From contig NZ_JMKT01000017.1 in assembly GCF_000686525.1 (NCBI RefSeq), positions 1 to 64,000 on the forward strand: 64,000 nt of DNA, written 5' to 3'. Source of the DNA: Desulfonatronovibrio hydrogenovorans DSM 9292 (GTDB taxonomy: Bacteria; Desulfobacterota; Desulfovibrionia; Desulfovibrionales; Desulfonatronovibrionaceae). Below the pieces are notes generated by a model, which made no database searches, was not told the DNA's origin, and saw only the letters and a list, made by a program, of their open reading frames with translations. Position numbers and translations under genes: made by a program. This document shows positions 22,701-25,580 of the stretch, in pieces; the stretch's first letter is position 1; the number at the start of each line of letters is the position of its first letter.

Positions 22701-23072
22701 TTATTTATAAACCTCCTTGGGATCAAAAACAATTTTTTCGCAAACCTCGAACCTGCCATCCTGGACCCTGGTAAAGAAACAGCTTTTGTAACCCTTATGG
22801 CAGGCAGCCCCGCCAACCTGCTCAACCCGGTACAAAATGGTATCATAATCGCAATCCAGCCGCAGCTCCTTTATCTTCTGAACATGGCCTGAAGTTCCGC
22901 CCTTGTGCCAGATACAATCTCTGCTCCGGCTGTAGTAGTGAGCTTCTCCTGTCTCCAGGGTCCTGTTCCAGGCTTCCTGATTGACGTAGGCCAGCATAAG
23001 CACCTGGCCGGTGGAATGTTCCTGGACAATGGCCGGCAGCAAGCCGTTTCCCTTGGCAAAATCCGGTTTCAA
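22701..23072 (-). CDS. hisI: Phosphoribosyl-AMP cyclohydrolase
   Basis: 123 residues, the monofunctional form without a HisE fusion. The metal and active-site blocks are [34 protein letters not shown] and [13 protein letters not shown], holding the zinc cysteines. It opens the ring of phosphoribosyl-AMP in step three of histidine synthesis. The stop directly abuts the hisG ATG. Confidence 0.95.
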
Positions 23073-23217: not shown

Positions 23218-24258
23218 TCATGATTCAGACGAACACCTGGCCTTGAGCTGGCCGCAGGCAGCATGGATATCAGCCCCCATACTCTTGCGCAGCATGACGG
23301 TAAAATCTTTAGACCTTAAATAATCCTGAAAAGCAGCAATGGATTCCTCGCTGGAACATTTAAAACCAGCTCCCTCTCCTGGATTATACCTCAACAGATT
23401 GATCTTGCATTTAAGACCGGACAGAAGCCTGACCAGGTCCCTGGCCTGGGAGGGGCTGTCATTCACTCCCTTGAGCATCACATATTCCATGGTGATTCTT
23501 TCTCTGGGAGCCAGGGGATAAGACTTCAGGTCATCCATGAGAGCCCCCAGCTCATATTCTGCTGCACCGGGCATCAAGGATTTTCTCAGGCTTTGGTCAG
23601 GCGCATGCAGGGATATGGCTGGCAAGGCCAGGTTTGAACGTCCAAAATCCATCAACCTGCCCCTGACCCCAACTGTGGACAGGGTTATTCTACGCCTGGA
23701 AAAATTCAGGGCCTGGGCATGCCGGAATATATTCAGGGCCTTTTGAACTTCCGTCCAGTTCAGAAGGGGTTCACCCATGCCCATTATGACCAGATTGCTC
23801 ACAGCAAGGGGATCACCCTGGTCCTTGAGGAACCTTACCGCTGAAACCACCTGCCCGGCTATCTCTCCGCAGGTCAGATTCCTTTCAAAGCCCATCTTCC
23901 CTGTGCTGCAGAACCTGCATCCCATTGGACATCCCACCTGGGTGGAAAGACATTGGGTGTAGTGAGTTCCGGCTGGAATGAGAACCGTCTCAACAACCTT
24001 CTCATCATCCATGGTCATGAGAAATTTCACGGTTCCGTCAGTACTGGTCTCAGCCCTGCTCACCCTGGGATGAAAAATCCTGTACTCCAGGCCCAGTTTT
24101 GAACGAAGAGCCTTGGAAACATTGGTCATGAATTCAAAGCTGGTGACCCCTCCGGCCCAAATCCACTTCATAACCTGATCAGCCCGGTAAGCGGGCTCAC
24201 CCAGGCTCTCCATCAAACCTGCAGCCCCGACCGGATCCAGGTCAAGAATGTTTTTTAT
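23218..24258 (-). CDS. rlmN: 23S rRNA/tRNA adenine-C2 methyltransferase RlmN
   Basis: The radical SAM core has GCPMGCRFCSTGKMGF, and the C-terminal cysteine that carries the methyl in catalysis is in ADIHAACGQL. It methylates A2503 of 23S rRNA and A37 of some tRNAs. The start is unusual. The first ATG (24213) or TTG (24216) would remove about 14 residues (IKNILDLDPVGAAGL) that match the normal RlmN N-terminus. An in-frame ATA at 24258-24256 lies eight bases after AGGAG and overlaps the TAA stop of the HD gene as ATAA, in the place where an ATGA overlap would be expected. I therefore propose an ATA start; if not used, the protein begins at 24213 or 24216. Confidence 0.9.
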   Translation of the reverse strand: MKNILDLDPVGAAGLMESLGEPAYRADQVMKWIWAGGVTSFEFMTNVSKALRSKLGLEYRIFHPRVSRAETSTDGTVKFLMTMDDEKVVETVLIPAGTHYTQCLSTQVGCPMGCRFCSTGKMGFERNLTCGEIAGQVVSAVRFLKDQGDPLAVSNLVIMGMGEPLLNWTEVQKALNIFRHAQALNFSRRRITLSTVGVRGRLMDFGRSNLALPAISLHAPDQSLRKSLMPGAAEYELGALMDDLKSYPLAPRERITMEYVMLKGVNDSPSQARDLVRLLSGLKCKINLLRYNPGEGAGFKCSSEESIAAFQDYLRSKDFTVMLRKSMGADIHAACGQLKARCSSES

Positions 24259-25580
24259 TGAATCTTCTCCTTTTCCTGATATTTCATAATGAATTCAATG
24301 GCATCAGGAACCGAGGAAACATCTCCGGCCACCTGGGCCTGCAGAAGAGCCTCTCTGATCAGCCCCACAGCCGGTCCAGGCTTGATTCCGGTGAAATCCA
24401 TGATCTCATGGCCATTGAGCAGGGGCTCCAGCATTTCTTCGGACAATTCGGCCCGGTCCAGCATCTTCATATTATGATTGAACTCTTTGTAGCTCCCGTT
24501 CCTGGCCTTGATGTCCGCCCTAGCCATCTCAATGAGCCGCGGATATTCATCCAGGGCCTTGAATCTTCTGATGCCGCGATCTGTGAGCATGAAATGAAAC
24601 CGCATATGATGCCTGACCAGATGACAGATGAGATCAACCTCATCGGTATTGAACCTGAGTCTCTTAAGGATCTTTCTGGTCACCTTGGCTCCGATCCGGT
24701 GATGCTGGTAAAAGGTGATCTTGCCGTCAAAATATTCACCGGCGAACAGCTTGCCCACGTCATGAAACAGGCAGGATATTGTTCCGTACCAGTCATAAGG
24801 AAGCTCCTCAGGATAGCGGCGCATGGTTTCCACAGTATGTTCCCAGACTGTTTCCTCTCCTTGGTCAGGGTTCTTGATCTGTTTGACCCGGCTGAGGGAA
24901 GCCAGTTCCGGAACAAGTCCGTGCAGGATCATGCTGTCAAAGAGCAGCTCCACAAAGCTGTGCATGTTCTCAGCTTCCACTTTACGCCATTCATCCATGA
25001 AATCGGTCACTGAAACATAATCCAGGACCCGGCGGCTGGCCCTGATCAAAGCCAGCCAGGTATTGCCCTCTATGGGCAGATGATAGTTGGCTGAAAAACG
25101 TAGTGCCCGAATGGCCCGAAGGTAATCCTTTTTCAGGGTTTCATCGGGAATTCCTTCCAGGCAGATATGGCCGGAATCCAGCTTTTCAAAACCATCGTAA
25201 ACATCCTGGGCCTTGGGGATATAGGGGCAGGCCCAGGAAAGGGGCAGATCCCCCACAGCCTCCAGCTTTTTCATCAGTCTCGGGGTCAGCCTGGCTATTG
25301 TACCGTCGGTATATGAGCTCTCAATGATGTCCGCCGGATAAAAATTAAAAGTCACTTCTCCCTGTTTCAAGATCCCGGTAAAGTCTGCAGACCGGGACGG
25401 TTCCATATTGGGAAAAAGCTTGCCAAGGCCCTCGGCATCAAGCTCGGTGCAGATATCCACCTCCAGGTCCTGATCGGACAGGGCTCTTTTCTGCAGAGGT
25501 GCATTTATGACATACGCATCATAGCCGTTGCGCATAATGGTTTTGCAAAGGGCTGCTGCGTCTTTTATGGGTTGGGGCAT
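24255..25580 (-). CDS. HD-domain protein with degenerate CCA-adding/poly(A) polymerase head
   Basis: 441 residues with the layout of class II tRNA nucleotidyltransferases. The substrate-proximal block DYLRAIRALRFSANY and an HD phosphohydrolase domain (WEHTV H248, FHDVGK H273/D274, HHRIG, HLVRHHMRF) are intact. At the N-terminus GYDAYVINAPLQKR stands where active enzymes have the Gly-Gly-x-Val-Arg-Asp motif, and LEVDI replaces the DxD metal pair. Nucleotide transfer therefore looks lost, while phosphohydrolase activity on a nucleotide or RNA end remains possible. It is translationally coupled to rlmN. Confidence 0.8.
   Translation of the reverse strand: MPQPIKDAAALCKTIMRNGYDAYVINAPLQKRALSDQDLEVDICTELDAEGLGKLFPNMEPSRSADFTGILKQGEVTFNFYPADIIESSYTDGTIARLTPRLMKKLEAVGDLPLSWACPYIPKAQDVYDGFEKLDSGHICLEGIPDETLKKDYLRAIRALRFSANYHLPIEGNTWLALIRASRRVLDYVSVTDFMDEWRKVEAENMHSFVELLFDSMILHGLVPELASLSRVKQIKNPDQGEETVWEHTVETMRRYPEELPYDWYGTISCLFHDVGKLFAGEYFDGKITFYQHHRIGAKVTRKILKRLRFNTDEVDLICHLVRHHMRFHFMLTDRGIRRFKALDEYPRLIEMARADIKARNGSYKEFNHNMKMLDRAELSEEMLEPLLNGHEIMDFTGIKPGPAVGLIREALLQAQVAGDVSSVPDAIEFIMKYQEKEKIQ

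Follow-up and report, generated by a model that had tools for sequence, protein, structure and literature searches.

A probable AUA start codon of rlmN, shared by 16 species and overlapping the stop codon of the upstream gene, in Desulfonatronovibrio hydrogenovorans and its relatives

Several bacterial genes are described as beginning at near-cognate codons, and infC offers a close parallel to the gene discussed in this article, rlmN. The AUU, AUC and AUA starts of infC are, like the putative start of rlmN, near-cognate AUN codons that have been kept for a long time in evolution and are accompanied by a strong Shine-Dalgarno sequence (SD). The difference is that the product of infC itself discriminates against the codon at which infC starts, whereas that of rlmN is an rRNA/tRNA methyltransferase; in addition, the rlmN start overlaps the stop codon of an upstream gene. 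Another parallel is the pcnB gene of Escherichia coli, for which Binns and Masters reportedly described an AUU start in 2002; to our knowledge, this AUU is not known as part of a stop-start overlap. The pcnB gene is a chromosomal RNA-processing gene limited by a near-cognate start, as rlmN may be, the codon being AUU in pcnB (PMC13009471) and AUA in rlmN. AUA starts are reported for infC, ccpN and citZ of Staphylococcus aureus, with ccpN and citZ giving ~10–30% of the AUG level in reporters (PMC13009471). The AUA of ccpN is kept between Staphylococcus aureus and Bacillus subtilis and has a strong SD, as in rlmN, although the gene and the phylum are different and the reduction of expression, which we infer for rlmN, was demonstrated for ccpN by experiment (PMC13009471). 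In Listeria rsbW, an AUA start gives less product than ATG and more than ATT (PMC13068326).

The second group of related systems consists of four-base (−4 nt) overlaps of the NTGA form. These (PMC6728339, PMC12548453) share with rlmN the overlap of four bases, the SD located within the upstream gene and likely termination-reinitiation; they differ in that the overlap is typified by ATGA, while in rlmN it reads ATAA or ATAG and consists of a TAA or TAG stop and an AUA start. A full-text search of open-licence papers yielded no report that we recognised of an AUA or other non-canonical start for rlmN. Near-cognate starts and NTGA overlaps are both already known, and the conserved ATAA/ATAG overlap with an AUA start is a new variant.

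The junction of rlmN with the upstream HD gene

The analysed sequence, referred to as the window, is a stretch of 64,000 nucleotides from D. hydrogenovorans DSM 9292. The rlmN gene occupies positions 23218..24258 of the minus strand and, when read from ATA, encodes 346 amino acids of RlmN, the dual-specificity adenine methyltransferase of 23S rRNA (A2503) and tRNA. Its identity as RlmN follows both from the NCBIfam equivalog model TIGR00048, which matches residues 3–342 of the ATA frame with 381.8 bits against a cut-off of 290, and from the presence of the N-terminal domain (Pfam PF21016, RlmN_N, residues 3–56) together with the radical SAM motif CxxxCxxC, found in the translation as CPMGCRFC; PF04055 covers residues 105–268. 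The adjacent upstream gene (24255..25580, minus strand, 441 amino acids) is similar to CCA/poly(A) nucleotidyltransferases. It carries an HD domain (PF01966, above the cut-off) and its best NCBIfam matches are all below their cut-offs; we refer to it as the HD gene. An HD gene is located upstream of rlmN in many relatives. For the next gene downstream of rlmN, hisI (window 22701–23072), the first start in the list is TTG, and AAAGGAG occurs shortly before it.

A preliminary description of the window had noted that the rlmN frame extends to an ATA overlapping the stop codon of the HD gene, with AGGAG eight bases before it, and both observations were confirmed on the minus-strand sequence. Read on that strand, the junction consists of AAGGAG (24272–24267, the SD, located inside the HD gene), AAGATTCA (24266–24259, 8 nt), ATA (24258–24256) and AAAAAC. 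The HD gene ends with ...AAG GAG AAG ATT CAA TAA, its stop codon being at 24255..24257, and the rlmN frame over the same bases reads ...GAT TCA ATA AAA AAC ATT CTT GAC, which places start and stop in a −4 nt overlap of the form ATAA. Upstream of ATA, the rlmN frame continues through 12 open codons, none of them ATG, GTG or TTG.

The list of open reading frames, which is based on standard starts, begins rlmN at TTG 24216, followed by ATG 24213; these first canonical in-frame codons (TTG-ATG, 24211..24216, minus strand) are the standard gene-caller choice. The 15 extra residues ahead of ATG 24213 are IKNILDLDPVGAAGL, of which the fifteenth corresponds to TTG 24216. They had been taken for the usual N-terminus of RlmN, and this interpretation holds: in the ATA frame, the alignment to the RlmN models begins at residue 3, and so does that to the E. 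coli RlmN chain of PDB entry 3rf9, whose residue 19 aligns with query residue 3 (NILDLD vs NLLDLN).

Conservation and history of the ATA overlap

The genome of DSM 9292 (G000; 2.94 Mb, 16 contigs) was set against those of its relatives. In an order-wide search of 348 genomes rlmN was found in 330, and the junction was inspected in 35 genomes, namely 15 of the 18 of family f1 and 20 of the 22 of family f3; those left out were G008 (weak match only), G011 (match without the N-terminus) and G017 (no match) in f1, and G027 and G028 in f3. ATA and the HD stop together form a 4-nt overlap in 16 of the 35 genomes, comprising all six of genus g1, all five inspected of g2, two of three in g3, both of g7 and the one of g8. 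Comparison of orthologous rlmN starts, which the preliminary description had proposed as a check, finds the identical ATA in 16 species from five genera and two families. The overlap reads ATAA in nine species and ATAG in seven; although start and stop have bases in common in all 16, as in other −4 nt overlaps, the NTGA form is found in none. The codon is located at the N-terminus of the protein family and is preceded at exactly 8 nt by a six-base SD in 16/16 species (AAGGAG in 14, AGGGAG and GAGGAG in one each). Because the overlap, the ATA and the spacing of the SD recur together in 16 of the 35 inspected genomes, they represent more than chance. ATA starts are rare, which would speak for a misread base or for a recent mutation of ATG to ATA in DSM 9292, and the preliminary description had left the choice between a real start and such an error or mutation open. 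The presence of ATA in 16 species, each with its own assembly, decides for the former and reduces the probability of an error or recent mutation to practically nil.

Reading the rlmN frame back from ATA to the first stop (or to the end of the locus) gives no canonical codon in 15 of the 16 ATA species; the remaining one, L010, has a single GTG 123 codons upstream of ATA in the rlmN frame. In L008 an in-frame TAA is located directly 5' of ATA and the next ATG, GTG or TTG is codon 44, which is also the position of the next canonical start in L014. Judged from such geometry, the start at ATA is forced in some of the relatives. The same comparison bears on the proposition that RlmN starts at TTG 24216 or ATG 24213 and that ATA is an unused relic. 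Standard start codons are indeed present at these positions and GGGG occurs 8 nt before TTG 24216, but translation from there would remove the first 14–15 residues of the conserved RlmN N-terminal domain. Moreover, the first canonical codon shifts among the 16 species (codon 4, 7, 9, 12, 15, 19 or 44) and in 15 of them has no SD or one outside the range of 5–9 nt, while ATA remains in place, as do its A and its SD. On the basis of the domain alignment, the unconserved position and the poor SD, we reject the downstream codons as the main start and consider this alternative very improbable.

The other 19 inspected loci of f1 and f3 are without the ATA overlap. The HD stop precedes the aligned rlmN N-terminus by ~90–170 nt in g4 (one locus), g6 (14 loci) and one g3 genome, and by 14–15 nt in the three g9 loci. 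The nearest start, read from the printed codons, is ATG in 18 of these loci and TTG in one (L011). All 18 ATG codons are at the aligned N-terminus or at most two codons off: exactly at it in 12 g6 loci and L013, and just upstream in L115, L118, L119, L120 and L121.

A tree of HD and RlmN (41 rows, 788 columns; g6 represented by 4 of its 14 inspected loci) places f1 and f3 in one clade with support 100/100. The distribution of ATA and non-ATA junctions on this tree involves four changes, for example one gain and three losses, and four gains cost equally. Outside this clade, the HD-rlmN junction reads ATGA in all six inspected loci of genus g37 (family f6) and TTGA in one of seven f4 loci; conversion of ATGA to ATAA takes one base change, which alters start and stop together. 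Taken together, the comparative evidence indicates that the AUA start of rlmN is a true, ancient and inherited start, assisted by the SD.

Two further loci deserve separate mention. L154 and L157 (the distant genus g50, family f6) have an in-frame ATAG at the HD-rlmN junction with ATG four codons downstream; these two genomes are ambiguous and were kept out of the ATA count. The rlmN of the f4 genome G041 (L195, L196; C1:2176256-2177329) appears as two match pieces within one 407-codon open frame, an arrangement suggestive of ~30 inserted residues around position 140.

Selective constraints at the junction

The first base of ATA doubles as the third position of the final HD codon. This codon ends in A in 16/16 species with the overlap (Gln CAA in 12, Ser TCA in 2, Lys AAA in 1 and Arg CGA in 1) and in 0/19 of the f1 and f3 loci without it; hence the A goes with the overlap. 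Of the 439 codon columns of the HD gene that are filled in all 16 species, the last is the only one that ends in A throughout. The 12 species whose HD gene ends in Gln share Gln at four more columns; there, CAA is used in 0, 0, 1 and 0 of 12, compared to 12/12 for the last codon, and CAA is the minor Gln codon in these HD genes (44 CAA vs 149 CAG, final codons included). One would not expect such a pattern to arise from conservation of the protein or from common descent alone, and it indicates that the A of ATA is under selection.

The kept A also bears on the possibility that rlmN has no separate start and is expressed as an HD-RlmN fusion by −1 frameshifting as ribosomes reach the end of the HD gene, with AAGGAG acting as a stimulator. 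The arrangement would suit such a mechanism in two respects: relative to the HD gene, rlmN occupies the −1 frame, and the HD stop is preceded by an SD-like motif. However, a frameshift leaves the conserved A unexplained, the codons before the stop differ between loci (ATT CAA, ATC CAA, CTG CAA, CTT AAA, CTC TCA, CTC CGA), and in L008 a TAA directly precedes ATA in the new frame; nor was a heptamer slippery site common to these codons seen on reading the listed junction codons. We therefore reject the frameshift fusion as highly improbable.

A different question is whether a weak start as such is selected. The HD stop in the 16 ATA species is TAA in nine, TAG in seven and TGA in none, and TGA would create ATG. 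In 232 genes sampled from the genome of DSM 9292, TGA is the commonest stop (102, compared to 83 TAA and 47 TAG). Avoidance of TGA was tested with a three-state model of stop codon turnover based on control genes. The modelled probability of no TGA in 16 is 0.0015 with rlmN, hisI and infC as controls, 0.0069 when hisG is added, 0.0036 with rlmN, hisI and hisG, and 0.11 with all six controls including rplT and rpmI; the stop of rpmI is TGA in 0/15. Given a non-TGA root, the modelled probability ranges from 0.0019 to 0.14. The argument is weakened because TGA is likewise absent as the HD stop from the 19 relatives without the overlap, and TGA avoidance is only suggestive of selection for a weak start.

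The sample of 232 genes comes from 359,271 bases of the same genome (17 stretches and the window) processed with a simple gene caller, and it was also scanned for ATA in −4 nt overlaps. Six genes including rlmN have ATA in this position; the other five have ATG within 8 codons, and no AUA start is claimed for them.

Translational coupling, IF3 and biological significance

The most probable reading of these observations, to which we assign a probability of about 85%, is that rlmN starts with an initiator Met at the AUA at 24258–24256, where ribosomes held by the SD reinitiate after translating the HD gene, and that little RlmN is produced. Ribosomes finishing the HD gene would be held by AAGGAG and reinitiate at the overlapping AUA; the near-cognate codon would let only a fraction of them start, and the level of RlmN would consequently be low and tied to that of the neighbouring HD gene. 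Coupling of AUA initiation to termination of the HD gene is probable because ATA is found only together with the overlap. The AUA start could instead be real but served by de novo initiation from the strong SD, with the overlap reflecting nothing but compact packing. The strong and well-spaced SD in 16/16 species is consistent with such initiation, which we nevertheless regard as rather unlikely, considering that ATA is restricted to overlap loci (16/16 with the overlap vs 0/19 f1 and f3 loci without) and that the SD is partly paired in several folds. The accessibility of the SD in isolated local folds ranges from 0.02 to 0.77; the folds vary, and no conserved structure occluding the SD was found among them. 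The reduced output of RlmN is inferred from work in other bacteria, because AUA yields ~10–30% of AUG in reporters of S. aureus and less than ATG, though more than ATT, in Listeria rsbW.

Initiation factor IF3 acts against AUA starts, and the output of RlmN may for this reason also track IF3 activity. The infC gene, which encodes IF3, reads GGGAGGA-ATGAGCT-ATA at its start in DSM 9292 (L197, C10:75794-76294, minus strand), with seven bases between the SD-like segment and ATA, and most likely also starts at ATA. In the aligned infC starts of 28 loci, read from the printed codons, ATA is found in 24, including all 16 species with the ATA start of rlmN, and ATT in G019 (g6), G039 (g9) and the f4 genomes G046 and G048. 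ATA is also present in infC of genomes whose rlmN start differs. We regard control of rlmN by IF3 as a possibility and not as a result. A more specific proposal, which we consider unlikely, is that rlmN and infC form a small group of AUA-started genes governed by IF3, in which RlmN would rise with IF3 when discrimination by IF3 is relaxed, and that selection keeps ATAA or ATAG even though one change, of the stop to TGA, would give ATG. If this were true, methylation of A2503 and tRNA, and with it translation accuracy, would be linked to the fidelity of initiation.

Gene callers limited to ATG, GTG and TTG predict an RlmN that is clipped at its N-terminus, both in DSM 9292 and in its relatives. 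Apart from infC, few genes have a conserved AUA start, and the rlmN case spans two families. It joins a near-cognate start with a stop-start overlap in the form ATAA/ATAG, which is invisible to surveys limited to NTGA. The rlmN junction offers a natural and testable case for the question of whether start codons are discriminated as strictly by reinitiating ribosomes as by free 30S subunits.
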